Origin: a virus | Length of the DNA: 20,881 nucleotides | Virus record (IMG/VR): IMGVR_UViG_3300047550_006818 | Span: 1-20,881 of that record | Reading direction: 5' to 3' (one strand) | Shown: one piece after another, positions 2,904-20,576 of the stretch | Numbering within the stretch: position 1 is the stretch's first letter | Layout of the letters: each line of letters begins with the position of its first letter | Notes under the pieces: model-generated | What the model was told of the DNA's origin: nothing | Databases searched by the model: none | Seen by the model: the letters and a program-made list of their open reading frames with translations, nothing else | Translations under genes and position numbers: made by a program

Positions 2904-2913
2904 GTTATTAATA

Positions 2914-2944
2914 GTTACACATAGTAACTTTAAAAGTGACTTTT
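2914..2944. repeat. Two small inverted repeats between terL and portal
   Basis: GTTAC-ACATA-GTAAC (2914-2928) can form a 5-bp hairpin. AAAAGT-G-ACTTTT (2932-2944) is a perfect 13-base palindrome overlapping the terminase stop codon. The core AGT(A/G)ACTTT also occurs twice as a direct repeat. They fill most of the 39-nt gap before the portal start, one of the few real gaps in this tightly packed operon. They could be an operator, an RNA-processing or translation-control hairpin, or a weak attenuator. There is no U-run typical of an intrinsic terminator. Confidence 0.5.
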
Positions 2945-4808: not shown

Positions 4809-5709
4809 TATCTAAAAAATATTGTAAATCTACCTGCCAAAGCTTACTACCATGATATAATAATTTTGGTATAATATCTAATGATTTATCACGATCACCA
4901 GTAAATACGAATTGAATTCTGCGAGCGTACTTATGAGATAAATATCTCATATTATGAAAAACATATTCTAAACTCGTTTTTCGACTAAACTTTTTTTGAT
5001 TATATTTTATCTTGCCTATATTGCTCTCTACAACCACAAACAAATAACCACCTAAATCTATTGCTTTTTGTATTTCTCTTTCGAATCTAGATAATCCAGA
5101 AGATAATGTTCCAAGGAAATCAGACTCTGCTTTTCGATCAACAAATGTATAACTATATTCTTTTTTGTTTAATAAATAATCTCCAATAAATAATTTTTCT
5201 ATTTTTGTATTTTCGAACTGCAATGGATCTTGCTCCCTTGTATCAACAAGTATTTCAGCATCAGATAAATCAATATCATTAAAATCTTTAGGAATATTTT
5301 TATTAAACAATGGTTCTATATTTATAAATTGACATGCGGCATTATAAGAACCAAAATATTTTTTATATATATTGATTGGCGGCAAATCTAAAGTGCTCAA
5401 TTCATTTGAAAAAGGAGCGTATTGATAACTCTTTTCTTTTATTCTAGTCTGAAGCATCTCAAGAATCTTCTGTTTAACAATTTCTTGTTTTTCATTTTTT
5501 TCCCATAATAAAAATTCTTGGAGATCCAAAAATTCTGTTTGGAAATATTCTTTTTTACTTTTGTATGGAATTTGCTTTTTATAAAATAAAGAATATCTTG
5601 GAAAATACTTACAATAATACTCTGCTTGATAAATTTCATGTTTTTTTAGATGAGCATGTAAACTTTTATCACTGTTAAATTCTTCATTACAGGCTGCACA
5701 TTTGATCAT
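4753..5709 (-). CDS. C2H2 zinc-finger ERCC4/XPF-type nuclease
   Basis: This 318-residue protein has two recognisable parts. Residues 4-24 form a classic C2H2 finger (C4-x2-C7-x12-H20-x3-H24, with F11 and L17 at the structural positions). Residues about 153-290 form an ERCC4 nuclease domain: LVDTREQDP (D156, R158, E159), IGDY (G176-D177), VDRKAESD (D191-R192-K193, D197) and SRFEREIQKA (208-211 core). This matches the GD-Xn-(E/D)RK-X3-D signature of XPF/Mus81 nucleases, which cut branched DNA. No helicase domain or C-terminal HhH is visible. The gene starts by ATGA overlap with the gene upstream and runs 56 nt into terL. A role in clearing branches or Holliday junctions before packaging, like T4 gp49, is inferred from the context. 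Confidence 0.9.
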   Translation of the reverse strand: MIKCAACNEEFNSDKSLHAHLKKHEIYQAEYYCKYFPRYSLFYKKQIPYKSKKEYFQTEFLDLQEFLLWEKNEKQEIVKQKILEMLQTRIKEKSYQYAPFSNELSTLDLPPINIYKKYFGSYNAACQFINIEPLFNKNIPKDFNDIDLSDAEILVDTREQDPLQFENTKIEKLFIGDYLLNKKEYSYTFVDRKAESDFLGTLSSGLSRFEREIQKAIDLGGYLFVVVESNIGKIKYNQKKFSRKTSLEYVFHNMRYLSHKYARRIQFVFTGDRDKSLDIIPKLLYHGSKLWQVDLQYFLDNELGTGKPDRKKIEIHQQ

Positions 5710-6782
5710 ATAGCATCTTCTTTAGAAATACCTAAAATTCTAGCTTTCCATGAAGACATGTTTTCGAATTTATCAGCTTCATCACGAACCGCTTTCTTTT
5801 GCATTTCAGCGATTTGAATCATCATCTTTCTTTCTTGCTCGTCTTGGAAAAGCTCAACAAGATTAATAATCGAAGCATTTTTTTGATGATGCATTTCTAC
5901 TCTTTTAGCTCTTTCACCATTTAATTTTTGCAACGACTTGTCGATACGTTGAGCACATTGATTATATTCTTCACTAATTGTTTTTAATATTTCTGTTAAA
6001 CGAATTGTCAAATCTTTTTGATCTTGCACATCATGAAACATTTCATTAACGGTGTTTTTCTTATTATCAATCTGTTTTAAATTTATATAATCCATGCATA
6101 CATTAATATATAAATTAATTTCATCGATTGTTAAATCTGGTTTATCCCAAGTCGAACGCACAAATTCCGCTTCAAATAAGTCTTTATCAGTGGCGCTACG
6201 ATAAGTATCGTAATTTTGTATAAATCTTGGACTAGAAAGATAAACCAATAACCTCTCTAAACATTTTCTATGTTGAAGGCTTAATTTATTTTCATCTATA
6301 TCTTGCCCACACCATTTATTAACTTTTTTAATTACTGAATTAATACTACGTGGAACAACATATTTTTCATTAACCGCTGATTCGTTTTCAACCAAATAGT
6401 CTGGATATTTTTCTTTAATAAATTTATGAATCGCTCTATATTGTGGAGTGATAAAAATATTAACACTCTTAACGTCTTGAAAATCTTTATTAAATAATAA
6501 TTCTGTAATCTGCTTGGGAGAAATACCTGTTTTAATATTTTGCTCAATAAATTCAATATGGTTTGGAGTTAAAGAAAATTCTTGAACAGTGTTTTTATTT
6601 TTTTGTTTCTTATTTAAAACTCCAGATTCAATCATGAAGTCACGAACCAATTTACAAGGTTTATCGCGTCCAGTTAGATTTTCTTGTCCAAGCATTAAAT
6701 TAGCAATAACTACATAATCCGTAAAACCTTCTTCAATTTTTTTAGAAATAAATATTTTTTGATCTTCTGTTAGATTATTCAT
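5706..6782 (-). CDS. Hypothetical protein with two HTH-like repeats and a coiled-coil tail; candidate small terminase
   Basis: This 358-residue protein is not recognised with certainty. The N-terminus carries two similar helical segments, LTEDQKIFISKKIEEGF (4-20) and LTPNHIEFIEQNIKTGIS (71-88). Each is followed by a stretch that could complete a helix-turn-helix. The middle (about 140-240) is helical. The C-terminus (about 255-345) is strongly charged and looks coiled-coil. A DNA-binding N-terminus, a helical oligomerisation region and a place two genes upstream of terL would suit a small terminase that recognises phage DNA, but it is longer than most. It overlaps the sigma factor gene by 8 nt and the nuclease gene by 4 nt. 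The gene itself is secure; the function is an inference. Confidence 0.85.
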   Translation of the reverse strand: MNNLTEDQKIFISKKIEEGFTDYVVIANLMLGQENLTGRDKPCKLVRDFMIESGVLNKKQKNKNTVQEFSLTPNHIEFIEQNIKTGISPKQITELLFNKDFQDVKSVNIFITPQYRAIHKFIKEKYPDYLVENESAVNEKYVVPRSINSVIKKVNKWCGQDIDENKLSLQHRKCLERLLVYLSSPRFIQNYDTYRSATDKDLFEAEFVRSTWDKPDLTIDEINLYINVCMDYINLKQIDNKKNTVNEMFHDVQDQKDLTIRLTEILKTISEEYNQCAQRIDKSLQKLNGERAKRVEMHHQKNASIINLVELFQDEQERKMMIQIAEMQKKAVRDEADKFENMSSWKARILGISKEDAI

Positions 6783-7497
6783 TGGAGAAAATATCGTGTT
6801 CTTCTAAAATTTGTTTCGCTTTTAAATAAAGTAATTTCTTTAAATTTTTTATTTGCTTATAACCCGCCTTACGACCTTTTTCTGATGTTCTAAATTTCAA
6901 AAATCTTGCAACTTCATCATCAGTTAAACAATCAATAAAAAACATTTTATAAATAAAAAAATATTTATCATTTAAATTAGCTTTCATAAGAGAATGTAAT
7001 TTATTTTCAGCATTTAAAAAATCCACGCTATCAGCTTGCTTGATATTTAAATGATAATTTTTATGATTTTCTAAACTAACAGGAATTTTTAAATCATAAG
7101 CACTTTTTTTAGTTTTTTCCCATTTAGCAAATAATGGACATTCACTACATTGTTTTTTACTAGGAGTGAAACCACAAGAATCTTCTATGCCTTTATCTAA
7201 TGATGTTTTATTTTGATTAAAAGAACATGATAAACAAGGTTTAGCAAAAGAGCTGTAATTATTTCTTATAATATTACGTAATTGATTCGTAACAATTCTA
7301 TTTATCCAAGGCTCAATAGCGCGAGATTGATCCCATAAATGCCACTTATTATAAATATGAAGCTTAATCATTTGCTCAATATCTTGAAAGTCAAACCAAG
7401 CAATGGCTTTAAGCTTCCATTTCATTTGGCGCTTTTTGATTATTTGATCAATCACTTCATACATTTCCTCAAATTTTTTTTTATTTTTACGGCTCAT
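6775..7497 (-). CDS. Phage late sigma factor, gp55-like, with a cysteine cluster
   Basis: This 240-residue protein resembles sigma-70 family factors. Residues about 30-85 look like region 2: FDFQDIEQMIKLHIYNKW followed by IEPWINRIVTNQLRNIIRNNY, with the conserved W, N and R pattern of the core-binding and -10-recognition helices. Residues about 189-232 look like a region 4-type helix-turn-helix (DCLTDDEVARFL, then a Lys-rich helix). Between them lies a cysteine cluster, C88-x2-C91, C108 and C117-x2-C120, likely to bind zinc. T4 gp55 (185 residues) directs host RNA polymerase to late promoters; this protein is longer mainly through the insert. It overlaps the zinc-ribbon gene by 11 nt. Which promoters it reads cannot be told here, since no convincing TATAAATA site precedes the genes in this window. 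Confidence 0.85.
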   Translation of the reverse strand: MSRKNKKKFEEMYEVIDQIIKKRQMKWKLKAIAWFDFQDIEQMIKLHIYNKWHLWDQSRAIEPWINRIVTNQLRNIIRNNYSSFAKPCLSCSFNQNKTSLDKGIEDSCGFTPSKKQCSECPLFAKWEKTKKSAYDLKIPVSLENHKNYHLNIKQADSVDFLNAENKLHSLMKANLNDKYFFIYKMFFIDCLTDDEVARFLKFRTSEKGRKAGYKQIKNLKKLLYLKAKQILEEHDIFSNE

Positions 7498-7864
7498 TCA
7501 CGTCCTCAAAATTACGACTCGACTGACATTCTTTTAGTGATTGAGCTAAATATTCTTCTTTTGATAGAGATCGAGAAACAGAAGATGGACGATCAAATTT
7601 TTCCGAAGAAGGTTTTTGGCTAATAATTTCATTAACACTAAATTTATTTCGACCTTCTTTTTGAATTTCGTAATCTAATCTATTTGGTCTTATAAAAGTT
7701 GTTGGCAAACCATCTTCATCTAATTCAGGCCCTCTGCTAGGCTGAATAATAGCTCTATTAGATTTTGCTAAAATTTGACCACCTAATGATGATCCACAAT
7801 TTGAACAAAATTTTGAACCAACCATATGTTTTGTTCCACAGCTAGAACAATAGATATTAGCCAT
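7487..7864 (-). CDS. Small zinc-ribbon protein
   Basis: This 125-residue protein begins with a compact zinc ribbon, C6-x2-C9-x10-C20-x2-C23, in the CxxCG...FCxxCG form of the double-zinc-ribbon/zf-ribbon class. The rest is polar and probably disordered (Ser, Arg, Glu-rich), with a short motif SLSKEEYLAQSLKEC near residues 99-113. No enzyme domain is seen. It lies between PhoH and the late sigma factor, overlapping the latter by 11 nt, so an adaptor role in transcription or RNA metabolism is possible but unproven. The ATG at 7864 is the only sensible start, because the ribbon begins at residue 6. Confidence 0.85.
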   Translation of the reverse strand: MANIYCSSCGTKHMVGSKFCSNCGSSLGGQILAKSNRAIIQPSRGPELDEDGLPTTFIRPNRLDYEIQKEGRNKFSVNEIISQKPSSEKFDRPSSVSRSLSKEEYLAQSLKECQSSRNFEDVNEP

Positions 7865-7875
7865 ATTCTATTATA

Positions 7876-8622
7876 TTAATGATGATTGAGTTTCTCTAAT
7901 TTCTTAAACTGATGAACAATGAATTTTAGAATCTCACTTCGCATGATATCTTCTTCTGTAAATTCGAAACAGAAAATACCTTTTTCTCGACTTTCTTCGT
8001 TATGAAATAAATCATATATCTTCATAAAACCTGATTTATTTCCAACATCAGATTGCATAGAATCGCCGCAAATAAAGATTTTAGTATTTTCACCAATTCT
8101 TGTTATTGCTGTTATTAATTCTTTAGTAGAAAAATTTTGACATTCATCAATTAAAATAATCATGTCTTTCCAAGTTGCACCTCTTAAAAAATTAACAGGC
8201 AAAGCTTCTATCAGTTTATGCTGCTCTAAATATTTTGTTTGATTAATAGGTATTAATTCATCCAATTTATCATATAAAGGTATCATAAATGGATTAAACT
8301 TTTCATCAACTGTACCGGGCAATGCACCCAAAGCTCTTTCTCCAGACTCAGCTATTGTACGAATGTATTTGATTTCAGAATGCTGGCCAGTATTAAATAA
8401 ATGAAGAGCACAATATACACTAATAAAACTTTTTGCTGATCCTGCGGGTCCATTTATAAATATTATTTTTGTATTTTTATCGAAAGCTATTTGAACAATA
8501 TGTCTTTGTTTTTCAGTTAATTTAAAATCCTTAATATTTAATTTTATATTTTTAAAATTATTAATTTCAATTGCTTCATCAATTTCAGACTTTATATGTT
8601 TTTTCTTCTTTTTATTTGACAT
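7876..8622 (-). CDS. phoH: PhoH-like ATPase
   Basis: This 248-residue P-loop ATPase has a Walker A GPAGSAKS (58-65), a Walker B IILIDECQN (155-163) and a sensor-like ICGDSMQSD (184-192). The downstream GFMKIYDLF and the insert IRTIAESGERALGALPG (87-103) are typical of PhoH proteins. A Lys-rich tail (residues 4-9) precedes the domain. PhoH-like genes are common in marine and freshwater phages. Their biochemical role is thought to concern RNA handling or phosphate stress, and it is not settled. The gene is divergent from the plus-strand glycosyltransferase, with only 26 nt between the two start codons, and lies 11 nt upstream of the zinc-ribbon gene. Confidence 0.93.
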   Translation of the reverse strand: MSNKKKKKHIKSEIDEAIEINNFKNIKLNIKDFKLTEKQRHIVQIAFDKNTKIIFINGPAGSAKSFISVYCALHLFNTGQHSEIKYIRTIAESGERALGALPGTVDEKFNPFMIPLYDKLDELIPINQTKYLEQHKLIEALPVNFLRGATWKDMIILIDECQNFSTKELITAITRIGENTKIFICGDSMQSDVGNKSGFMKIYDLFHNEESREKGIFCFEFTEEDIMRSEILKFIVHQFKKLEKLNHH

Positions 8623-8646
8623 GTTAAATAAGAATTACACTATGAT
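8616..8646 (+). promoter_or_regulatory. Weak candidate sigma-70 promoter for the lone plus-strand gene
   Basis: TTGACA (8616-8621) and TATGAT (8641-8646) are separated by 19 bases, longer than the usual 16-18. The -35 overlaps the PhoH start codon. The predicted start of transcription (about 8652-8654) falls at or just after the ATG at 8649. Either the true -10 differs or the match is chance. It is listed because an isolated plus-strand gene needs its own promoter. Confidence 0.25.
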
Positions 8647-8648
8647 AT

Positions 8649-9692
8649 ATGGTTTTTCACTGTCTAAGTATTCCGTATGCACCCACAAGAAAAGAAATTT
8701 CTTTATGCGCTTTTATTCAAAAAGTATATAAATTTTGTGACGAAATGACAAAAAGAGGCCACACTGTTTATCATTATGGTCATGAAAATTCTATTGTTAA
8801 TTGCACTAAACATATTAATGTTACTAATGATGATATTTTAAAAAATGATTATGGCAACTTAAATTATTGGCAACAAACAGGTTTTGATCAAAATGTTGAA
8901 ACACAAACATTTAAAATATTTAATAAAAATTGTATCACAGAAATAGAAAAAAGATTAAAAGATAAAAATGAATTTATACTTTGCTGGTTTGGATTCGGAC
9001 ATCTTGAATGCGCTGAACACTTTAAAGACAGAGCAATTATTATAGAACCTAGCATTGGATATGATTCAATGTTTGCACCAATTAAAATTTTTGAAACAAA
9101 AAGTCAATTAAGCAAGATGCATGGAATGGCACAAACCAATGTAAATTTTGAAAGAGAATATGTTGTATATCCCGGTTTTGATAGAAATGATTTCGAATAT
9201 AAATCTGAAAAATCTAATACAGCATTATTTTTGGGTCGAATTATATCAGAAAAAGGCGCAAAACTTGCATATGATATTTGCAATCATATAGGACAAGAAA
9301 TTATTTTTGCAGGACCAAATATAATGAATTTACAAGATACTGAATACTGTAAATTTATTGGATTTGTAGAACCGAAACAAAGAAAACAATTATTGAGCAA
9401 TGCAAAATTTTTATTTGCACCGAGTTTATTTATTGAGCCTTGTAATTGGACCGTTATTGAAGCTCAATTTTCAGGAACACCCACAATAACCACAGATTTT
9501 GGCGGCTTTGCAGAAACAGTAGCTCAATTAAAAACTGGATTTCGATGTTTTGACGCTGCAACTATGATTCATTCTATATTAAATATTAAAGACATAAATC
9601 CAACAGAATGTTATAAAAATGCAATAGATAAATTTACAATAGAAAAGCAGTGTGATAATTATGAATTTATTTTTAATTCATTGATGCACTGA
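8649..9692 (+). CDS. GT4-family glycosyltransferase, the only plus-strand gene
   Basis: This 347-residue GT-B enzyme of the GT4 type transfers a sugar from a nucleotide-sugar donor. The C-terminal donor domain shows LFLGRIISEKGAK (193-205), then FAPSLFIEPCNWTVIEAQF (256-274), which contains the EX7E pair E263/E271, and a following GTP...TDFGGFAETV. The N-terminal domain is less conserved and includes a GHTVYHYGHE motif (37-46). No membrane segment or signal peptide is seen, so it acts in the cytoplasm. The ATG at 8649 is used because the ATG at 8642 is out of frame. No Shine-Dalgarno is visible. The gene runs against the rest of the operon and its 3' end overlaps the neighbouring O-heptosyltransferase-like gene tail to tail by 34 nt, which suggests separate acquisition. 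Confidence 0.9.
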   Translation: MVFHCLSIPYAPTRKEISLCAFIQKVYKFCDEMTKRGHTVYHYGHENSIVNCTKHINVTNDDILKNDYGNLNYWQQTGFDQNVETQTFKIFNKNCITEIEKRLKDKNEFILCWFGFGHLECAEHFKDRAIIIEPSIGYDSMFAPIKIFETKSQLSKMHGMAQTNVNFEREYVVYPGFDRNDFEYKSEKSNTALFLGRIISEKGAKLAYDICNHIGQEIIFAGPNIMNLQDTEYCKFIGFVEPKQRKQLLSNAKFLFAPSLFIEPCNWTVIEAQFSGTPTITTDFGGFAETVAQLKTGFRCFDAATMIHSILNIKDINPTECYKNAIDKFTIEKQCDNYEFIFNSLMH

Positions 9693-10519
9693 TCTATTTT
9701 TTGTTTAACCATATCAAAAGAAATTTCTTTACTGCATTCAAATTTTTTATTATTTGGACAGTACAACCAACCTTCCGATAAAATCCTATCTTTATTGTTT
9801 ATAGATTCATCGTTCAAACAACCATGACAAACATTTTTATTTATTACCCTATAATTATTAGAAATAAATTCATTATTTTCTTGGGTGCAACCGGAAATCA
9901 TTACGACTTTTTTATTTAAAGCCCATGCTAACCAACTTAATCCACTGCTTAAGCCAATAAAAAATTCACAATTTTTAAGCTGTTCTATTCTGTATTCAAT
10001 AGGATAATTTCCTGTTTCATTAAATGCTTTTTGAGGTATATGATTCCAATGGCCAGATATGCCAAAAATCTCATCTTTATCAATTGCATAAACATCATAA
10101 CCATTATCTTTTAGATACTTAATAGTTTTATTCCATCCTGAATTGTTATTCCAATATTTCATTTGACAAGTAGATTGAATTCCAATGCATACATATTTTT
10201 TCTTTTTCTTAAATTTATATTTATCAAAATTTTTTATTGAAGGAATTATTTCTTTATAATCAATTCCCAATTGATCGCAAATTAATTTTTGTATTGGACA
10301 ATTTTTAAAATGAAAATTAATTTCAAATATTTTATCATATGAAATATTCTCAGATTTATTAATGAAATGAACATTTTCATTATTTGACTGAAGAATATTA
10401 TGCCATTTTGTTTTTACAAAAACTTTTCCGCCATATTTTTTTTGATATAAATCTGCATATGGAGAAAAAGCGATATTGTCACCAAGAGCTTCTGTTATAA
10501 AAATAATACAAGTAGTCAT
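9659..10519 (-). CDS. Stand-alone O-heptosyltransferase-like protein (TibC/Aah type)
   Basis: This 286-residue protein resembles the bacterial autotransporter heptosyltransferase family, GT9-like enzymes that attach heptose from ADP-heptose to Ser residues. Key stretches are ALGDNIAFSP (11-20), GIQSTCQMKYWNN (113-125), FIGLSSGLSWLAWAL (187-201) and VVMISG (205-210). Four cysteines lie in C231-x2-C234-x19-C254-x7-C262; in TibC-type enzymes such a set binds iron. It is a paralogue of residues 1222-1503 of the 1733-residue protein encoded just upstream (3-nt gap). The usual N-terminal part of TibC/Aah is missing, which is common for phage versions. No ADP-heptose synthesis gene is seen here, so the donor may come from the host or be another sugar. 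Confidence 0.87.
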   Translation of the reverse strand: MTTCIIFITEALGDNIAFSPYADLYQKKYGGKVFVKTKWHNILQSNNENVHFINKSENISYDKIFEINFHFKNCPIQKLICDQLGIDYKEIIPSIKNFDKYKFKKKKKYVCIGIQSTCQMKYWNNNSGWNKTIKYLKDNGYDVYAIDKDEIFGISGHWNHIPQKAFNETGNYPIEYRIEQLKNCEFFIGLSSGLSWLAWALNKKVVMISGCTQENNEFISNNYRVINKNVCHGCLNDESINNKDRILSEGWLYCPNNKKFECSKEISFDMVKQKIDQCINELKINS

Positions 10520-10522
10520 TGA

Positions 10523-13500
10523 TTATGAATATTTTTTTTCTGTTTTATCGATATAAGAATATCCCTCAAATTCAAAACAAATTTTATCAGTGTTAAATCT
10601 TAAAAACTTTTCACCTTCTCTTTCAAAACAATAATTTAACCACCAATCAAAAGCATGAAAATCATATTTATTAAAAATATATTTATAAAAATATTTATGT
10701 TTTTTAGAAATAATATATAAATGTGCTCCCCATATATTTTCAATAGAATAAATATCATCTATTATTTTATTTTCACTTTTAATTTCATCTACGCTTCTTC
10801 CAAATGTGAAAAGTTTATAATTAGTTTTTTCTAATATTTGGATAGCTTTTTCGAAAAAAGTTTTAAAAGATTTAGAATCAGTTAAAATTTTACTATCTCC
10901 TTCGGAAACAACTAAATAATCATAATCGTTTTCATTTTCAAAAAAATCTAAAATAGCATCAGTATGGGCTTTGTAACAGCCATAATGTCGAGGAGTTAAA
11001 CCAAACTCATCAGATTTTTTATCGATTTTAATCCAATGTGTATTGTTTTCAAAAACTTTCAAATTTTCAGGGAAAGCATCGTAAATTTTTGAATTTTTTA
11101 TACAATAATTAACATACGGCATTAAAGAAAAACCATTAATAATATTTTCAATAGATAATTTTTCTTTGTTTCCGTTTTTATCAGAAATTAAATGAGCCAA
11201 TAGGATCTTTGGATTCTTAAGATCAGATAACAATAAATCTATTTTTTCTTTTACCATTTCAAAAGTTATTTCTTTGGTACATTCAAAATTTTTATTTCTA
11301 GGGCACCAAGACCAATTTCCTTTGTCGAATAAAATTTCTGGATCGTTCCAGCAACTATTACAAATATTTTTATTATGAACTCTATATGGAGTATAGAATT
11401 CAGATTTTGGATCTGAAAAACCAGAGATCATAACAACTGGTTTTCCAATCGCCCAAGCTAACCATGATAAACCTGAACCAAGGCCAATAAAAAAATCGCA
11501 AAAATAAAGATCGTTAATTCTCTCCTCCAAGGAAATATCTCCTGTTTTATCTAATGAATTATAAGGAATAGAATTAACATATTGACCATAACCTATATTA
11601 TTATGCTTATCAATAGATACGACTTCGTATCCTAAAGATTTTAAATAATCAACTAATTTAATCCAACCGCCTTCATTATTCCAAAATTTTGCTTGCGCAG
11701 TAGATAAAGATCCAATGCAAATATATTTTTTATTAAAATTATTTCTAAGATTTTTTGGTAAAGAAATTTTTGGACGAATTTCAATATACTCTAAACCTAA
11801 AATTTTAAATGCCAGTTCTTGTAAATTAAATTCATTCCATTTTTTATTATTAATATCAAAACATCCTAACGAATAATCAACCGTATTAGGTTTTTCATTA
11901 TAATTATAAAAATTTATATTTGAATATTCTTTTTCAAACAATTCTTTATATGGAGTATAATATTTTACTTTGCAGCGATGAATTTTTTGAAAATGATCAA
12001 CTACTGGAACCCAAGCTATATTGTCTCCAAGAGATCCAGATTCATTAACAATTGAAATTGTTTTTTCTGAATAAGCGTAAATAACGCCTTTCTTTTGATT
12101 AAAATCATCAGTTAATTCATAATTTAAATTAAAATGCTCAATTAAAAAATTATTTGATTGCAGTTTATTTAAAATACAATCACGCAATAGATGACCATCA
12201 TTATGATGATACTCAATAATAAATGATTTAAATTTTTTAATGATATCATCAGTTAAATATTTAAATATTTCATATTCAAAACCTTCAATATCTATTTTTA
12301 AAACATCAATTTTTTCTAATTTATATTTTTTAAAAATAGAATCAATTGTACAAGTTGGAACTGAAATTGTTTCAATATTTTGCAAATCATTTCCATCCGC
12401 TTCAGTTTGTTTATCAAAATAAAAAGATGTTAAAGTGGAATTACCGCAAGTAGTTAAATTAACTGTTTCTTCTTTAAAAGATAAAGCTTTATTTTCTAAA
12501 TAAACTTGTTGGATATTTTTAAAAGTTTCTTGTAAAACACCAAAAGATTTTGAAGGTTCTATAGCAATAATTTTACTAGCTTTTTTAGATAAACAAAAAT
12601 CAACAAAAGTACCACAACTAGCTCCAACATCTAAAACAATATCATTTTCTTTAATAATTGATTTATAAAAATCTTTTGAATAAAAATCAAAACTCTGAGA
12701 AAAGAAATTATCATATAAACATAAATCCAAATCAGTAGAAAATTTAAACTGCCTTTCATGTTTATTAGTATGGCAATCAGGATTTATCGGAATTTCAATA
12801 TCAAAAAGAAGTTTATTATTTCTGTAAGCAATAAATTTAAAACCAGTAAAAATATCTATATCTAGTTCTTTTTCTAAATATGGGCTTGTAAAATATTCCC
12901 AGCCTTGAATAATCGAAAAACTCTGTCTATTATTTATATAAGATAAATTTAAATTCTTTTTTAAATCTTTAACGATTAAAATAAAATCGCGAATATCTTT
13001 TGTTGTGTAAAAGAATAATTTATTTTTTGATTTTTCGTATTTAAAATATAAACCCGATAAATCAACAGACGCATCACAATAAATAATTTTATGATTTATA
13101 TTTTTAAGTATTGAATTTGAATGGTTATTAAACTTTTTAGATACAGAAAATTGCAAATTATCGTTTGAATCATAAACATTAAATAACACTTCATTAACTG
13201 AAGATTTTAACTCCGCTAATGCAGAAAAATACTCACATCCATATTCGCAAGTTATTTTATCTTCAAAAAGAATAGAATTATCATCGGCATTTAAAAATTT
13301 TATTTTAGCATCTACATTAAAAATTGAATTATTTGTATATCTAATTCCTAAATTATTATGAGTAAAACCTACAAAAGAAATTGATGCAGATGATAAAGTT
13401 TTTTGTAATTCCATGATATTATTAAATGCGATTTTAGCTGAGTTGATCCAAGAAAAATTCTTAATTATAATAGAAGATTCATCGATACTTTTCTTTAAAA

Positions 13501-15724
13501 ATTTATCATAATTTTCATAAATTTCAATCATTTTATTTTTCAAATCATCAAAATCAGGAATATAATAATCACCTTGAATGCTTTTACAAAATTGTTCTGA
13601 AATGAATTTGTCCGCTTTTTCTTGTGATTTGATTTTGATTGGAATGCCTAAATTTTTTGCAAACTCTAATTGACCACTGCATTCAGAATAAATTGAAGGA
13701 ACTCCACATGCCATTGCCTCTATCAATGGCAAATTCCAACCTTCTCCTTTTGAACAAGATAAAAATACATGAATAGATTTCAAACAATCAACATAATCTT
13801 GTTTAGTTAAAAAATTCAAAATACGAATATTTTTGCTTTCAAGATTATAATGCTTTAATCTATTTTGTGTATTTTTTAAACCATCTATATCATATGGATT
13901 ATCAACAGATAATAAAAGTTCAACATTTTCATTATTTTTAAATAAATTATTAAAACATCGAATCAAATCGATAGTACTTTTTCTTTGATCCCAGCGACCA
14001 AAAATCGCAAAAGTAAATTTATTTTTTAATTTTTTATTTTTAGTATTGAAAACATTTTCGTCAACACCCAAAGGTACAATTCGGATTTTATCAGATGGAA
14101 ACCCTTGTTCAATCAAACAATTTTTTTGCCATTCAGATGGAACCCAAAATTGATTAAATTTTTTAATTTGATCTAAAAAGTCATTTGGAAACTCAGTTGT
14201 TTCATACATGCTATAAGCAATTTTTGGACCTTTATAATCATCATAAAAATAATGATGATAAGATTCATTTATGACTAAATTAATATCAGGTTGATAATTT
14301 GCTTGATAATTATATATTGGATAATCAGTTCTTGAACCATCTTGATTATATAAAGTTTGTGAATGCAATATTTTCTTATGATTCTCTTCTATATCTAAAT
14401 CATGGGGAGTTAAATTATAACTTTTCCAATTATTAAAAATAGTATAATTTCTAACTTTAACATCGCATATATTATTTAATTCCAGTAATAAATTTTGACA
14501 GACAGCATTAAAACCCCCATTACCGACAAAACTGCAACTCGTTAAAACTTTCAATTTATTTTTATCTAAATCTTTTAGGTAATCGAAAGCTAAAGAAGCG
14601 GCATTTTCCCAAGTAAATGTTTTAGCAATATCTTTTGCCTCATCTAAAGCTTTTTGTTTATAAAAACTATAATTTTTATAAACATCTAGCATTTTATTTT
14701 TTAAATCATCAAAATCCGGTTCGTACCAATAACCAGGAGAAATTTGATTTTTATTTTGTAAAAAATCTTGAGCTAAAACTCTGTTTTTAATTTTTACTGA
14801 AATACCTTTTCCTTCTGCAAATTCCAATTGACCACTGCATTCCGAATAAATAGATGGAGTGCCACACGCCATTGCCTCAAGCAAAGGAATATTCCATCCC
14901 TCACCTCTGGCACAAGATAAAAATACATGTCCCTTTTGTAAATATTCTATATAATCTTTACGGTCTGGAAAATTTAAAACTTTAATATTCGGAGCAATTA
15001 AATTATATTTTTTGAGTCTTTCATTTGTATTAGAACATCCATCATTATAAAATCCGCTTTCAGTTGATAAAACTAATTCAACATTTTCATTTTTTCCAAA
15101 AACATCAATAAAACATTTAATTATTTCTTTAGTACTTTTACGATCACACCAAGCCCCAAAAACCAAAAATCTAAATTTATTATCATCATAATTAATATCT
15201 TTTGGATAATAAACAGTTGAATCAACCGCTTCGGGAACAACTTTTATTTTATTCTCGAACATTCCTTGTTCAATCAACATTTGACGTTGCCATTTTGAAG
15301 CGACCCAAACTTGATCAAATTCTTTCAATTTTTCAAAAAAATTTTCTGGGTATAATGAATTTTCCCAAACATTATAAGCTATTTTATATCCTTTATAAGA
15401 ATCATAAAAATAATAATGATCTACAGTATTTAAAATAATATTGATATCAGGTTCAAAATTACTATCGTAATTATAAATCGGAAAATCTTTTCTTTGATTA
15501 TTAATATCCCATAACGTTTGAAGATGAAGAAGATTTTTATCTAAATCCGAGGCATCGATTCCATGATAATCATAATCTGTACATGGATAACCTTTCCAAT
15601 TTTTCCCTACTGTGAAATTTCTTATTTTTAAATTTACTTTTTCACTTAATTTTCTAAAAAACCCCTGTGAGTGAGCATTATATCCGGTCGTGCCGATGTG
15701 GCTTGTATGAGCTAAAACATTCAT
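10523..15724 (-). CDS. 1733-residue multi-enzyme: GT4-GT4-beta linker-FkbM methyltransferase-O-heptosyltransferase-like-GT25-like
   Basis: One uninterrupted frame joins five enzyme-like domains. GT4 copy 1 (1-385) has EX7E E275/E283 in GEGWNIPLLEAMACG, and GT4 copy 2 (391-775) has E661/E669. A beta-rich linker spans about 780-1000. An FkbM-type SAM methyltransferase (about 1015-1220) shows VLDVGASCGTF (1030-1040), IAIEPS (1053-1058) and LKIDIEGFEYEIF (1142-1154). The O-heptosyltransferase-like domain (about 1222-1503) has GSLGDNIAW, FIGLGSGLSWLAWAIGKP and the four-cysteine set C1455, C1458, C1474, C1482. A GT25-like domain (about 1505-1733) has LTPRHYGCYKAHTDA (1576-1590) and VVSEGD (1605-1610), where GT25 enzymes usually have EDD. 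The start overlaps the upstream stop as ATGA. No transmembrane segment or signal is seen. It probably builds and methylates an oligosaccharide in steps; the acceptor is unknown. Confidence 0.92.
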   Translation of the reverse strand: MNVLAHTSHIGTTGYNAHSQGFFRKLSEKVNLKIRNFTVGKNWKGYPCTDYDYHGIDASDLDKNLLHLQTLWDINNQRKDFPIYNYDSNFEPDINIILNTVDHYYFYDSYKGYKIAYNVWENSLYPENFFEKLKEFDQVWVASKWQRQMLIEQGMFENKIKVVPEAVDSTVYYPKDINYDDNKFRFLVFGAWCDRKSTKEIIKCFIDVFGKNENVELVLSTESGFYNDGCSNTNERLKKYNLIAPNIKVLNFPDRKDYIEYLQKGHVFLSCARGEGWNIPLLEAMACGTPSIYSECSGQLEFAEGKGISVKIKNRVLAQDFLQNKNQISPGYWYEPDFDDLKNKMLDVYKNYSFYKQKALDEAKDIAKTFTWENAASLAFDYLKDLDKNKLKVLTSCSFVGNGGFNAVCQNLLLELNNICDVKVRNYTIFNNWKSYNLTPHDLDIEENHKKILHSQTLYNQDGSRTDYPIYNYQANYQPDINLVINESYHHYFYDDYKGPKIAYSMYETTEFPNDFLDQIKKFNQFWVPSEWQKNCLIEQGFPSDKIRIVPLGVDENVFNTKNKKLKNKFTFAIFGRWDQRKSTIDLIRCFNNLFKNNENVELLLSVDNPYDIDGLKNTQNRLKHYNLESKNIRILNFLTKQDYVDCLKSIHVFLSCSKGEGWNLPLIEAMACGVPSIYSECSGQLEFAKNLGIPIKIKSQEKADKFISEQFCKSIQGDYYIPDFDDLKNKMIEIYENYDKFLKKSIDESSIIIKNFSWINSAKIAFNNIMELQKTLSSASISFVGFTHNNLGIRYTNNSIFNVDAKIKFLNADDNSILFEDKITCEYGCEYFSALAELKSSVNEVLFNVYDSNDNLQFSVSKKFNNHSNSILKNINHKIIYCDASVDLSGLYFKYEKSKNKLFFYTTKDIRDFILIVKDLKKNLNLSYINNRQSFSIIQGWEYFTSPYLEKELDIDIFTGFKFIAYRNNKLLFDIEIPINPDCHTNKHERQFKFSTDLDLCLYDNFFSQSFDFYSKDFYKSIIKENDIVLDVGASCGTFVDFCLSKKASKIIAIEPSKSFGVLQETFKNIQQVYLENKALSFKEETVNLTTCGNSTLTSFYFDKQTEADGNDLQNIETISVPTCTIDSIFKKYKLEKIDVLKIDIEGFEYEIFKYLTDDIIKKFKSFIIEYHHNDGHLLRDCILNKLQSNNFLIEHFNLNYELTDDFNQKKGVIYAYSEKTISIVNESGSLGDNIAWVPVVDHFQKIHRCKVKYYTPYKELFEKEYSNINFYNYNEKPNTVDYSLGCFDINNKKWNEFNLQELAFKILGLEYIEIRPKISLPKNLRNNFNKKYICIGSLSTAQAKFWNNEGGWIKLVDYLKSLGYEVVSIDKHNNIGYGQYVNSIPYNSLDKTGDISLEERINDLYFCDFFIGLGSGLSWLAWAIGKPVVMISGFSDPKSEFYTPYRVHNKNICNSCWNDPEILFDKGNWSWCPRNKNFECTKEITFEMVKEKIDLLLSDLKNPKILLAHLISDKNGNKEKLSIENIINGFSLMPYVNYCIKNSKIYDAFPENLKVFENNTHWIKIDKKSDEFGLTPRHYGCYKAHTDAILDFFENENDYDYLVVSEGDSKILTDSKSFKTFFEKAIQILEKTNYKLFTFGRSVDEIKSENKIIDDIYSIENIWGAHLYIISKKHKYFYKYIFNKYDFHAFDWWLNYCFEREGEKFLRFNTDKICFEFEGYSYIDKTEKKYS
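13400..15724 (-). repeat. Tandem duplication of the GT4 domain inside the 1733-residue protein
   Basis: Residues 1-385 and 391-775 align along their whole length, including YNYD/YNYQ, CARGEGWNIP/CSKGEGWNLP and a shared stretch EAMACG(T/V)PSIYSECSGQLEF. At DNA level, short blocks are identical in both copies (for example ACAAGATAAAAATACATG near 14920 and near 13752). This points to a fairly recent duplication or to gene conversion. Both copies keep the EX7E pair, so both may be active, perhaps with different donors or acceptors. Confidence 0.85.
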
Positions 15725-17604
15725 CCTAAAAATTTTAATAAATTATTATAAATAATTTTTCCAGTTTGTTTCTCGATTATTCTAACAGAAAAATCCTTAG
15801 ATGTCAACAAACTTTCTTCTATAAAATCAATATAATAAAGCTGATAATCATAAATATTTTGATTATCAAGAGTCAAAAAAACTTGATTGTTTTCATTATC
15901 AAAAACCTCAAAATAAACTAATTGATTAAAAGTTTTAGAATTAAAAAATCCTTTTTTATGAAAAATTAAACTTTTTTTGCGTGTAGTATAATAACAAATT
16001 ATTTCATTTTGCACTATAATTTGATTTAGATATTTATTTTTAATATCTTCAAATTCTTTAGCAGTTTTCATTTTATGGAAACATAATATATCATTTACGT
16101 GTTCTGGAAGTTTTTTATTAATTGATGATTCAATATTTTTACCGTATCCATAATTAGAAAAAATATCTAAATTATTTATATCATCAGTTTCTTCGATATC
16201 TACAGTGGGCAATGAATTAATATAATTATATTTCGCAAGTAATATATTATCGGCATCTTCATCATGAATTGCAAAAATTCCAAATTCTGTATTTTTATAT
16301 TTTACATAAAGCTCAATAGCTTCGTTAAAAAAAGATAAAGACTTACTGTCATAAACAATAAAATTGGCTTTTCTTCTTGGAAATAAATAATTTTCAACAC
16401 CAATCTTTTTACCCAAAATAGCAATAGGAGAAATGCATTGGCCACTATTTTGATAATTATTCACAACGATATAATCATAAAGATTTAAATTAAATAATGG
16501 ATAATTTTCTAGTTGATTAAAATATTTAGTCACTGAATCACAATTGACAGTTAAAAATAAATCGGAATCGATATAAACCATTTTTTTATCTGCAAATCTT
16601 TCACAAGAATCTTTTAAAATGTAAGATTTTATATTTTTTATTAAATCTACATCATTTTTCGCATCAAAATCAAATCTAATCGATACAAATTGATCATCAT
16701 TTAAATCTAAATCTTTAATGACATCAATTTTATAATCTATGGAGTAAATAATTATTTTTCTATTCGAAAACATACGCAATGAATTCAACATTTCTTTTGC
16801 AAATTGTTCGTAGTTTTTATCAAAATAAGTTACCCAATAAAAATCATCTTTTAATATTTTAGAGCAATACGTTTTTAAACAATCTTCAGTTTCAAAAAAT
16901 TTTAAATCATTTTTAAAATAAAAATGAAATAATAATTTTTCTTCGTTATTTATATAAAGTTTTTTATTTTTTACAATAGAACAATCAAGATGTTTTCCAT
17001 TTGAACCGACATTTATTAAGTGGCCTAGATCACAAATAGAAACATTATTTTGCTCTAGTATTTTTACTAAATATGTCTCATCCAATGATTGATATTTTGA
17101 ATGTTGTAATAGTAATTTATAATCATTTATGTTTTTATAAAAAGTATTGAAAATTAAATTATTTTTCCATATACAAAATGGACCACGAATACCCGGAAAA
17201 TAAACCTTATCTCCAATTGAAATAAATTCTTGATTTAAATGAGGTTCAAGCAAATTGTAAATATCTCCCCATAAAATATCGATATCATAAAATCCTACAT
17301 AGTCATAATTCAAAAGATAATCACTAAAAATATCAGCATAAATTATTTTATGATCACAAAGTTTGTAAAAATTTGTTAACTCAATTTTAAAACCTAATTT
17401 TTTAAATATAAACTGCTTATATATTTCAGGGTTTAAATATTTTATCTTAATATTAGAAGCTGCATTTTGAAAAATTGAATCTTCCGATTGATCTGTAAAA
17501 AATAAAAAATCAATATTTTTTTGATTATTGCATGTTTGCAAATGAAATTTAAAATAATCCGGTAATTTTCCAAACCAAACTTGAATAAGACAAATTTTTT
17601 TCAT
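15721..17604 (-). CDS. Two-domain GT-A glycosyltransferase with C-terminal beta module
   Basis: This 627-residue protein has an N-terminal domain (about 1-250) resembling the DUF6625-type glycosyltransferases: CLIQVWFGKLPDYF (5-18), DFLFFTDQ (32-39) and YVGFYDIDILWGD (102-114), with D107/D109 as a candidate metal-binding DxD. A second GT-A domain (about 255-510), GT8-like, has YWVTYFDKNYEQFA (256-269) and MVYIDSDLF (342-350) with DxD D346/D348. The last 75 residues (about 549-625) form a predicted all-beta module similar to parts of two neighbouring enzymes. It starts directly after the stop of the methyltransferase gene (TAAATG) and overlaps the 1733-residue gene by ATGA, so the three are probably translationally coupled. 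Sugar and acceptor are unknown. Confidence 0.88.
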   Translation of the reverse strand: MKKICLIQVWFGKLPDYFKFHLQTCNNQKNIDFLFFTDQSEDSIFQNAASNIKIKYLNPEIYKQFIFKKLGFKIELTNFYKLCDHKIIYADIFSDYLLNYDYVGFYDIDILWGDIYNLLEPHLNQEFISIGDKVYFPGIRGPFCIWKNNLIFNTFYKNINDYKLLLQHSKYQSLDETYLVKILEQNNVSICDLGHLINVGSNGKHLDCSIVKNKKLYINNEEKLLFHFYFKNDLKFFETEDCLKTYCSKILKDDFYWVTYFDKNYEQFAKEMLNSLRMFSNRKIIIYSIDYKIDVIKDLDLNDDQFVSIRFDFDAKNDVDLIKNIKSYILKDSCERFADKKMVYIDSDLFLTVNCDSVTKYFNQLENYPLFNLNLYDYIVVNNYQNSGQCISPIAILGKKIGVENYLFPRRKANFIVYDSKSLSFFNEAIELYVKYKNTEFGIFAIHDEDADNILLAKYNYINSLPTVDIEETDDINNLDIFSNYGYGKNIESSINKKLPEHVNDILCFHKMKTAKEFEDIKNKYLNQIIVQNEIICYYTTRKKSLIFHKKGFFNSKTFNQLVYFEVFDNENNQVFLTLDNQNIYDYQLYYIDFIEESLLTSKDFSVRIIEKQTGKIIYNNLLKFLG

Positions 17605-18247: not shown

Positions 18248-19237
18248 TTAATTAATCGATATTTTATTTAAAAAATCAAAAATATTTTCTTCGTATTCAT
18301 TATCAAACTCGGCAATAAGATTATTATCGATATCATAAAACATAAATTTGAATCTACCAACTAAATCTTTACGCAAAGAAATATAATAATTATACATGTA
18401 TTGTAAGTTCATTTCTGTTTCATAAATTATTTCATTCAATTTATTAAAAACTTTAACCTTTGTATATATATCATCGAAAGGATGAGAAGCGTTTGTAAAA
18501 TACATTCCATTTTTATTTTCTAACCAATTCAAAAGTGCAATTTCAGGATTTTTAAATCCAAAAAGAGTATTAATTTTATCGAAACCATCAGTACCGTTTC
18601 CATGAAAAACACAAGGTTGTGTATTAGTTATTTTGTTTAAAAATCTATTGTTTTGTTTTTCGAAATTCGATAGATTTTCAAAAATCAAAGATTGGAAAAT
18701 TTGATTTTCAGTATCAGCTTTTATTTTTATATTATTTAACGTAGGAAAAGCAAAAATATTATATAAATATTGATCATCTGAAAGCAAACGAGTATCTGAT
18801 AAAACTGCGTTCGAAAAATACGATAAAAAGTCCAAATATTTTTTTAACATTGCATTTTTAAATATCAAACATCCAGCATTGATAAAAGTATCATAAGAAC
18901 AATAAGTTTTTAATTTTTCATCAGGCCAACAGTTCTTTTCGACAGAATGAAGAATATCAATATTCATATTCAAGAATTTCTGTTCTATCTCAAGGTCGGG
19001 CGCTACTGTGATAGTATCAAATGCGTCCACGCACATAATCACTTCATCATCAGGATAATCATCAAGAATTTTTCTTAATTTATTAATTTTTAAATCTAGA
19101 TACGATATAAAAACATCATCATCAATATATAAATTATAATCGTTGCCGTTTTCTAAAAAACGATTGATGTTTTTACATAGAAATGGAAACTTAGGATGAT
19201 CACGAAAGTTCTTATCAGCTTGCAGAATTATTTTCAT
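18248..19237 (-). CDS. PLOD/LH3-like glycosyltransferase with C-terminal beta module
   Basis: This 329-residue protein resembles the glycosyltransferase domain of procollagen lysyl hydroxylase LH3 and its viral relatives. Markers in order are VIMCVDAFDTI (67-77, metal-binding DxxD D71/D74), ILHSVEKNCWPDEKL (95-109), TFINAGCLIF (117-126), LSDDQYLY (152-159), a following ADTENQIFQSL (174-184) and CVFHGNG (209-215). LH3-type domains add galactose or glucose to hydroxylysine in collagen-like sequence. No lysyl hydroxylase domain is present here, so the acceptor may differ. Residues about 246-312 form a beta module like that of the 627-residue protein. The ATG at 19237 lies 26 nt after the FkbM gene. 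The family call rests on several shared motifs. Confidence 0.87.
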   Translation of the reverse strand: MKIILQADKNFRDHPKFPFLCKNINRFLENGNDYNLYIDDDVFISYLDLKINKLRKILDDYPDDEVIMCVDAFDTITVAPDLEIEQKFLNMNIDILHSVEKNCWPDEKLKTYCSYDTFINAGCLIFKNAMLKKYLDFLSYFSNAVLSDTRLLSDDQYLYNIFAFPTLNNIKIKADTENQIFQSLIFENLSNFEKQNNRFLNKITNTQPCVFHGNGTDGFDKINTLFGFKNPEIALLNWLENKNGMYFTNASHPFDDIYTKVKVFNKLNEIIYETEMNLQYMYNYYISLRKDLVGRFKFMFYDIDNNLIAEFDNEYEENIFDFLNKISIN

Positions 19238-19263: not shown

Positions 19264-20238
19264 TCATTTTTCAATAAATTTGTTGTTATATTTTAAATTT
19301 TTAGCGTAAATCATGCCGCTATCTTCATTAAAATATTTAATTTCATAAATAAAATTATTTTTTTCAAAAAAGTTTATTATTTTTTGGCATTGTCCGTGGT
19401 ATTCTAAAACAATTTTATTAACATTTTCACAAATAAAAGATTCATTTTTATCTGTAAAAATATAATGTTCGCCGCCTTCACAATCTATTTTTAGAAAATC
19501 TATAAATTTTATGTCATTTAATTCAATAAAATTTAAGAAATCAATACCTTGAATTTTTTGGATTTTATAGTTTGAATGGATTTCTTGATTCGTTAAAATA
19601 AAATTTCTGCCATCAGTATCATCTAAAAGCATCAAATTTTTTTCTTCTGTTCTGTCTGAAATAGCATAATTATTAATAAAAATGTGTGGATAAATGTCAA
19701 AATGACTTTTTAATATATTTATGCATTCAATATTTGGTTCGCAGCAATATATTTTAGAAGCTTTATGCTTCATGGCATAATAAATAAATCCGCCAACATT
19801 AGAGCCAATATCAACAACAACATCGTTTTTATTTAATGGAGTTATTTTAGATTCATATATGTTTTCGCAAAAAATTTCACTAACTATTGTTTTATCAATA
19901 TAATGGTTATAATAATTTAAAAGATAAGGAAATTTCTTTAATAAAGATAAATCTTGTTCTTTTTTGAGTTGAACTGTTTTATAGAAAATTTTTCCATTTT
20001 CGTGAAACATTTCGATGCAAACAGTATCTGAATAAGGCAATGGAAAAGCCGCCCAATAAATTACATCTTTAGAGAAACAAGCATTATACCAATACAAAGA
20101 AACATAAAACTTCGGATCGGAAAATTTTATTTTTATATTCTTGTTGCTGAATTCGTTATTTAAAAGTTTGAAATCTAATTTAACAGCTTGATTCTCTGTA
20201 ATAACACAGTCAACAATAGAAAAATTATCATTAGTCAT
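19264..20238 (-). CDS. FkbM-family methyltransferase with N-terminal beta domain
   Basis: Residues about 130-310 of this 324-residue protein form an FkbM methyltransferase: VVDIGSNVGGFIYYA (141-155) binds SAM, CCEPNIECI (165-173) is the second motif, and FLKIDCEGGEHYIF (248-261) and VLEYHG (277-282) are diagnostic of the family. FkbM enzymes O-methylate hydroxyl groups of polyketides and sugars. The first 100 residues are predicted beta and may bind a glycan. A similar layout, beta region then FkbM, occurs at residues 880-1220 of the 1733-residue protein, and the residues just before the SAM motif also look related. The gene lies 17 nt downstream of the small acidic protein gene. No Shine-Dalgarno is seen. 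Confidence 0.88.
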   Translation of the reverse strand: MTNDNFSIVDCVITENQAVKLDFKLLNNEFSNKNIKIKFSDPKFYVSLYWYNACFSKDVIYWAAFPLPYSDTVCIEMFHENGKIFYKTVQLKKEQDLSLLKKFPYLLNYYNHYIDKTIVSEIFCENIYESKITPLNKNDVVVDIGSNVGGFIYYAMKHKASKIYCCEPNIECINILKSHFDIYPHIFINNYAISDRTEEKNLMLLDDTDGRNFILTNQEIHSNYKIQKIQGIDFLNFIELNDIKFIDFLKIDCEGGEHYIFTDKNESFICENVNKIVLEYHGQCQKIINFFEKNNFIYEIKYFNEDSGMIYAKNLKYNNKFIEK

Positions 20239-20255: not shown

Positions 20256-20576
20256 TTAGTCTGATTCTTTCTCAATAAATTTCTTGATCATAGATGTAAA
20301 AAACTTCTCAAAGCCAATGTTTTTAATGCATTCGCTGATCTTTCTGCTCGCGACAAACTTACCAACAATCTCGCCCTCAAAACAATCATCTTCATCTTCT
20401 TCTGGTAAAGTAGTAAGCAGACTCAAGTCATCCACTTTCATGATGATGACCTCTATTGTAGTTATATCTTCGCCAAATTCAAGAAAAGGTATCTTCTTGC
20501 GGTAAACGCCTTCGGCGTCAGGGAGGGCGGCCATCCTTTTGCCCCGGCCATCCTTATATATTAATATATAATCCAC
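20256..20576 (-). CDS. Small acidic protein of unknown function
   Basis: This 106-residue frame starts with GTG at 20576; an alternative in-frame ATG lies at 20534 (residue 15), directly preceded by AAAAGG, too close for a normal ribosome site. The product is acidic in the middle (LPEEDEDDCFEGE, 57-69) and ends with a helical, lysine-rich segment. No domain is recognised. The DNA is visibly GC-richer than its neighbours and uses more C- and G-ending codons. That could mean a different origin or strong constraint. It is the first gene of the leftward series before the non-coding stretch. It is likely but not certainly a real gene. Confidence 0.6.
   Translation of the reverse strand: MDYILIYKDGRGKRMAALPDAEGVYRKKIPFLEFGEDITTIEVIIMKVDDLSLLTTLPEEDEDDCFEGEIVGKFVASRKISECIKNIGFEKFFTSMIKKFIEKESD
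20528..20555. repeat. Pair of 11-bp direct repeats near the start of the small acidic gene
   Basis: CGGCCATCCTT occurs at 20528-20538 and again at 20545-20555, with a 17-bp period. On the minus strand each reads AAGGATGGCCG, which places AAGG next to ATGG in two different frames. Because 17 is not a multiple of three, the repeat does not reflect a protein repeat. Two protein-binding sites or a small tandem duplication are possible. Confidence 0.6.

Follow-up and report, generated by a model that had tools for sequence, protein, structure and literature searches.

Viral proteins that unite several glycosyltransferase (GT) activities are known from chloroviruses: the PBCV-1 protein A064R (638 aa) combines two rhamnosyltransferases with a methyltransferase and builds the end of the capsid glycan, as assayed in vitro (PMC9614988), and the chlorovirus protein A111/114R (860 aa) carries three GTs (PMC7826918). 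In mycobacteriophages, capsid and tail proteins are glycosylated (PMC12619734). A further point of reference is TibC, which heptosylates autotransporter adhesins using Asp-110 as catalytic base, and in which the donor residues Thr-226, Lys-230, Arg-286 and Trp-305 as well as the iron-finger cysteines 339, 342, 358 and 370 are needed for function (PMC4358343). Here, we compare these systems with a gene from a window of 20,881 nucleotides, a 20.9-kb metagenomic fragment from IMG/VR (record IMGVR_UViG_3300047550_006818).

The gene occupies positions 10523-15724 on the minus strand of the window and forms a single open frame from ATG to stop, encoding 1733 aa with 0 internal stops. Its start overlaps the stop of the gene at 15721-17604 by 4 bp and its end is separated by 3 bp from the gene at 9659-10519, so that it lies within a tightly packed minus-strand run extending from 20576 to 9659; a plus-strand GT4 gene (8649-9692) is convergent with this run. 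The conserved core flank (867-9692) comprises a portal-sized gene (presumably the portal gene, a reading that we base on its size), TerL, four small genes and PhoH on the minus strand, followed by the plus-strand GT4 gene. The TerL-like terminase near PhoH (PHROG, 1.5e-27), PhoH itself and the portal-sized gene together identify the contig as a tailed phage. An earlier note on this DNA had claimed an uninterrupted frame with two GT4 domains, an FkbM methyltransferase, an O-heptosyltransferase-like domain and a GT25-like domain, with catalytic motifs largely kept: every one of these elements was recovered, the catalytic signatures being intact in all enzyme domains, and the strand, which that note did not give, can now be added. 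Signatures and models together show five complete predicted enzyme domains in one chain.

The two GT4 domains, the FkbM domain and the GT9 domain were named using Pfam, PHROGs and NCBIfam. GT4 domain a (residues 1-388; 14561-15724, minus strand; EGWNIPLLE at 275) and GT4 domain b (residues 390-775; 13400-14557, minus strand; EGWNLPLIE at 661) share a PF00534 match (1.8e-25) in two stretches and are paralogues with 47% identity over 389 columns; the E-x7-E donor motif is present in both and in their orthologues. The FkbM-type SAM methyltransferase (residues 1005-1216; 12077-12712, minus strand; DVGASCG at 1032, KIDIEGFE at 1143) matches PF05050 (6.7e-17), possesses the SAM motif and adopts a class I fold in its model. 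What had been described as one beta-rich linker, residues 776-1004, resolves into two beta modules: LINK1 (residues 776-895; 13040-13399, minus strand) is confidently modelled as beta strands with a pLDDT of about 70-91 over its first 90 residues, and LINK2 (residues 896-1004; 12713-13039, minus strand) has a low-confidence model and is missing, along with FkbM, in the related contig L017. LINK1 resembles the C-terminal module of a PLOD-type GT encoded three genes upstream (18248-19237, minus strand; hhalign 90%, 27% identity over 75 columns) and, with less certainty, the N-terminal beta domain of a second FkbM methyltransferase (19264-20238, minus strand; hhalign 80%). This suggests a beta module common to neighbouring glycan enzymes, which may act as a docking or acceptor-binding part. 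A relocated TibC beta-barrel was also considered for LINK1, for which hhalign gives only 23%; models built from orthologues only revealed no wider relatives of the linkers, and the results of iterated HMM searches with them were dropped because these strayed into GT4 regions.

The fourth enzyme domain (residues 1217-1505; 11210-12076, minus strand) matches the GT9 heptosyltransferase family PF01075 (1.7e-8) and, over residues 1216-1496, TIGR04414 (hepto_Aah_TibC) with 281.3 bits, where the curated cut-off is 200: by sequence family it is a TibC/AAH-type domain and not a general heptosyltransferase. The equivalent of the TibC catalytic base is D1234, those of the donor-site residues T226, K230, R286 and W305 are T1342, K1346, R1402 and W1421, and all four iron-finger cysteines are present (C1455, C1458, C1474 and C1482). 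Among 42 non-identical fused phage copies, the equivalents of D110, T226, K230, W305 and the four cysteines occur in all 42 and that of R286 in 38. The model of the domain superimposes on TibC with 2.0 A over 283 residues (Z 31.6). The TIGR04414 profile match begins at position 78 of 374, and the N-terminal beta-barrel of TibC (PF21129), present in other phage copies, gave no match in the 1733-aa protein. At the position of Pro-300, the site of heptose stereoselectivity in TibC, alignments place Gly in the fused domain and Ser in its short neighbour; the hydrophobic thumb tip F265/V266, which serves ring assembly in TibC, aligns with Q and Y, then V.

These data bear on what the enzyme might modify. 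Since GT9 includes LPS heptosyltransferases, and weak matches to heptosyltransferases I and II were obtained, the protein could modify a host surface polysaccharide (LPS or capsule) in the course of infection, perhaps as a barrier to superinfection, instead of a phage protein. GT4 and GT25 enzymes are likewise frequent in LPS pathways. We nevertheless regard this as unlikely, although worth keeping in mind: the domain scores 281 bits for the protein-modifying TibC type against 17 for LPS heptosyltransferase II and carries the iron finger, the locus adjoins late virion genes, and the fast swapping described below also fits a virion surface. Glycosylation of phage DNA bases as hypermodification against restriction is very improbable: DNA is a frequent target of phage glycosyltransferases (PMC12619734), but TibC-type domains act on proteins and no homologue of the thymidylate synthase/hydroxymethylase family PF00303 was found (0 of 12 related records, which are incomplete; positive controls matched). 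PF12851, searched without a positive control, also gave no match in related records.

In case of the acceptor and donor, no autotransporter substrate of the kind used by TibC/AAH was found in the related phage records, most of which are fragments, and the TIGR04415 repeats that mark such substrates were seen in 0 of 16 of these mostly fragmentary records. GmhA had no match in the related records, again mostly fragments, and HldE kinase-like genes occurred only in contig L026 and in a 735-kb phage. As most related records are devoid of ADP-heptose synthesis genes, the donor would come from the host or would not be heptose. L026, which bears a GT4-FkbM-TibC fusion, encodes both the HldE kinase-like protein (14884-15615) and an RmlA-like nucleotidyltransferase (5784-6635), hinting that some of these phages make sugar donors themselves.

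The C-terminal domain (residues 1507-1733; 10526-11206, minus strand; HYG at 1580, E1608-x-D1610) had no direct Pfam match, PF01755 included, and only a weak match to a PHROG annotated as glucosyltransferase. We therefore built its family by alignment searches bridging through L023 and a 735-kb phage, which yielded 92 phage relatives with invariant H-Y-G, E-x-D, D and G-x-S positions. PF01755 (Glyco_transf_25) is matched by 13 of 40 family members (best 4.3e-6), and the only PDB sequence match is a GT25 enzyme (E 0.21). Both fold searches with the AlphaFold model of the domain (pLDDT 91.6, pTM 0.90) were topped by the GT25 enzyme COLGALT1 (Z 17.9, 3.0 A, 205 residues; E 5e-8). The PF01755 matches of relatives, the confident model and the rank of COLGALT1 thus bear out the original GT25-like assignment. 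The family is common in phages (92 loci, L168-L197 among them), mostly without a Pfam name, and several members form fusions with GT4 or FkbM; two loci (L204 and L205) encode a TibC-type and a GT25-like domain only, in 623 aa, a minimal pair well suited to assays.

Whether the fusion is real can be judged from its relatives. A search of IMG/VR with the whole protein as single sequence gave no matches because of the pattern choice, and an alignment search with the TibC-type domain returned 442 relatives. Contigs L006 and L007 contain all seven modules in identical order (1736 aa; 53-79% identity per module), which answers the suggestion that the same order be sought in other phages; eight further contigs (L008-L015) encode six modules in the same order, minus GT25, in 1490-1495 aa. 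In L017, LINK2 and FkbM are missing cleanly and in frame. Amongst the closest pairs every module has a dN/dS well under 1, with values < 0.55 in all modules for the pair of the window and L006: judged by these ratios, the modules are under purifying selection. Fusion in independent contigs and purifying selection together exclude misassembly or a chance junction. An artefact or decaying fusion in the wider sense, with misjoined reads or inactive domains, could be suspected since the window is a metagenomic fragment and L006 retains no more than pieces of the short partner gene, but is scarcely credible given the recurring junctions, the dN/dS values below 1 across all modules in the closest pairs and the kept catalytic residues.

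The earlier note had also held that bacteria usually spread such domains over separate genes, and the comparison agrees: within the best 80 bacterial genome loci the longest complete TibC-type ORF measures 577 aa, whereas complete viral ones have a median of 711 aa and a maximum of 1736 aa. As these 80 loci are the best-scoring only, rarer bacterial fusions may exist. In the tree of TibC-type domains, bacteria fall on one side of a fully supported branch; long and short phage copies are largely apart, with the short copy of the window placed among the short ones.

The surroundings of the gene vary between related phages. The PhoH core is common to 33 loci (PhoH, terminase and small genes are about 64-92% identical), and variable sets of glycan enzymes sit between the gene for a 106-aa protein, where present, and the convergent GT4 gene. 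In the window this 106-aa protein (20256-20576, minus strand) borders the variable cassette, and homologues occupy the same place in L006, L007, L028-L030, L034, L053 and L079. The architectures found in PhoH-core loci range from a TibC-type domain alone (395-398 aa) through GT4+TibC (663-887 aa), GT4+GT4+TibC (1150 aa) and GT4+GT4+FkbM+TibC (1490-1495 aa) to the complete GT4+GT4+FkbM+TibC+GT25 (1733-1736 aa), and further include GT4+FkbM+TibC+GT25 (1544-1549 aa), GT9+GT4+TibC (1314-1316 aa) and GT9+FkbM+GT4+TibC (1639 aa). Mapped onto a five-gene core tree, the architectures require no fewer than 9 changes. The core proteins of L023, L025 and L041 are near-identical and their cassettes different: at the DNA level, the flanks of L023 and L025 are 91-98% identical, whilst matched cassette parts reach only 66-76% and the rest is unalignable. 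Likewise, the core proteins of L011 and L017 differ by <1%, yet L017 is devoid of LINK2 and FkbM. Comparison of predicted architectures hence shows that related phages exchange domain make-up at one locus while the core flanks stay nearly constant.

The same comparison speaks to the proposed match between the order of the domains and that of the reactions, as on an assembly line. FkbM precedes the TibC-type domain in the window and in L023, follows it in L027 and L045-L047, and lies between two GT9-type domains in L079; GT4 stands before or after the GT9-type domains depending on the phage. Furthermore, the TibC-type domain, the likeliest starter of a protein-linked glycan, is the fourth of five enzymes here. 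Because domain positions permute amongst related phages, linear order cannot be read as reaction order and this part of the earlier interpretation is not supported; the comparison addresses a fixed domain order and not the chemistry. A true vectorial line, in which the domains act from N- to C-terminus on one chain, has a precedent in A064R, whose domains act in the order D1, D2, D3 (PMC9614988), but is improbable here given the permuted positions of FkbM and GT domains relative to the TibC-type domain and the clean absence of LINK2-FkbM from L017. A looser assembly line, with several steps on one chain carried out by one polypeptide, is plausible.

Directly downstream of the 1733-aa gene lies a short stand-alone TibC-type protein of 286 aa (9659-10519, minus strand), 43-44% identical to the fused copy and belonging to a separate clade. 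In many phages (L010, L011, L018, L024, L042 and others) the long protein has such a short one (about 274-304 aa, without beta-barrel) behind it, and the short copies keep most catalytic residues; the gene is absent from L017 and present as fragments only in L006. Short and long proteins might assemble into a mixed ring, or the short one might take a different donor. Upstream, a 627-aa protein (15721-17604, minus strand) consists of DUF6625 and a second domain, the latter resembling the N-terminal domains of the fusions in L028-L032 and L079; acidic motifs and the glycan context suggest that DUF6625 is a glycosyltransferase. Further upstream in the same cassette lie a class I methyltransferase (PF13578; 17605-18243, minus strand) and the PLOD-type and second FkbM genes described above. 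Elsewhere, the cassette of L030 includes a NodU-like carbamoyltransferase gene (5343-6917, recognised by eye), suggesting further sugar decorations, and in L018 (10875-15766), from another phage group, a TibC-type gene pair stands directly upstream of a 1317-aa gene that appears tail-sheath-like by eye and whose product is a possible acceptor.

Our preferred explanation, to which we give an even chance, is that the protein serves its tailed phage as a modular O-glycan synthase with a phage protein as substrate, encoded at a locus where cassettes are swapped. In such a synthase, the TibC-type domain would transfer the first sugar, heptose or similar, from a nucleotide donor onto Ser/Thr of a phage protein, the GT4a, GT4b and GT25-like domains would add further sugars and the FkbM domain would O-methylate, and so cap, a sugar. 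The beta modules would tie the modules to one another or bind the acceptor, and thanks to the fusion several activities would stay with a single acceptor; module swapping would alter the glycan shown by the virion, comparable to O-antigen loci and bacterial surfaces. This explanation draws on the score, residues and fold of the TibC-type domain, the FkbM and GT25-like folds, purifying selection, cassette exchange, the terminase and PhoH neighbours and the A064R precedent; to be counted against it are the lack of TIGR04415 in 16 mostly fragmentary records, the few ADP-heptose genes, Gly at the Pro-300 position and the missing beta-barrel. We infer that synthesis begins on a protein and that it targets the virion, and likewise the sugars and what is gained by swapping. 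Tentatively, and as an idea that may well not hold, the locus could serve as a switch of glycan type: whole modules (GT4, TibC-type, GT25, and FkbM together with its beta module) would join, leave or replace one another within a single protein responsible for starting, extending and capping a virion-protein O-glycan, and phages that are otherwise near-identical would wear different sugar coats.

Comparison with described systems places the TibC/AAH autotransporter heptosyltransferases (BAHT, TIGR04414; PDB 4rap, 4rb4) closest at the level of the domain, with the same catalytic domain, base, donor-site residues, iron-finger cysteines and fold; an ADP-heptose donor and a dodecameric ring further characterise that family. 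The phage copy differs as a domain within a 1733-aa chain, without N-terminal beta-barrel and with Gly at Pro-300. No paper describing phage O-heptosyltransferases of TibC type was found in the open-access literature. Microcystis phage Mel-JY01 does encode a fused protein (WWT39291.1, 1226 aa, annotated as "methyltransferase FkbM") of GT4 (46%), TibC-type (41%) and methyltransferase domains, which differs in its single GT4, a Methyltransf_24-type domain instead of FkbM, the presence of the TibC beta-barrel and the absence of GT25. The GT25 galactosyltransferases (COLGALT1, PF01755) share with the C-terminal domain the GT-A fold and the family signature around HYG and E-x-D; at 12% identity to COLGALT1, the window domain represents a phage-specific branch without its own Pfam match. 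Mycobacteriophage virion glycosylation employs separate enzymes, unlike the fused phage gene, and we know of no TibC-type initiator in it. A064R and A111/114R likewise are single viral proteins that unite several GTs to make a virion glycan, with a methyltransferase after the GTs in the case of A064R, but comprise other GT families, have no TibC-type domain and belong to a eukaryotic algal virus. Taken as a functional kind, defined by a viral ORF that combines two or more GT domains with a methyltransferase, A064R has a counterpart in the 1733-aa protein and is the nearest kind in the open literature searched, in which the phage version with its TibC-type domain, five predicted enzymes and cassette exchange was not found. 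If our explanation is correct, phage glycans would be changed through cassette swaps, phage glycan coats could be tested module by module, with possible effects on adsorption, host defence and immune recognition, and one-polypeptide glycan synthases could be used as tools. Tailed phages would then make complex protein-linked glycans with single modular enzymes, such as have so far been assayed in algal viruses.
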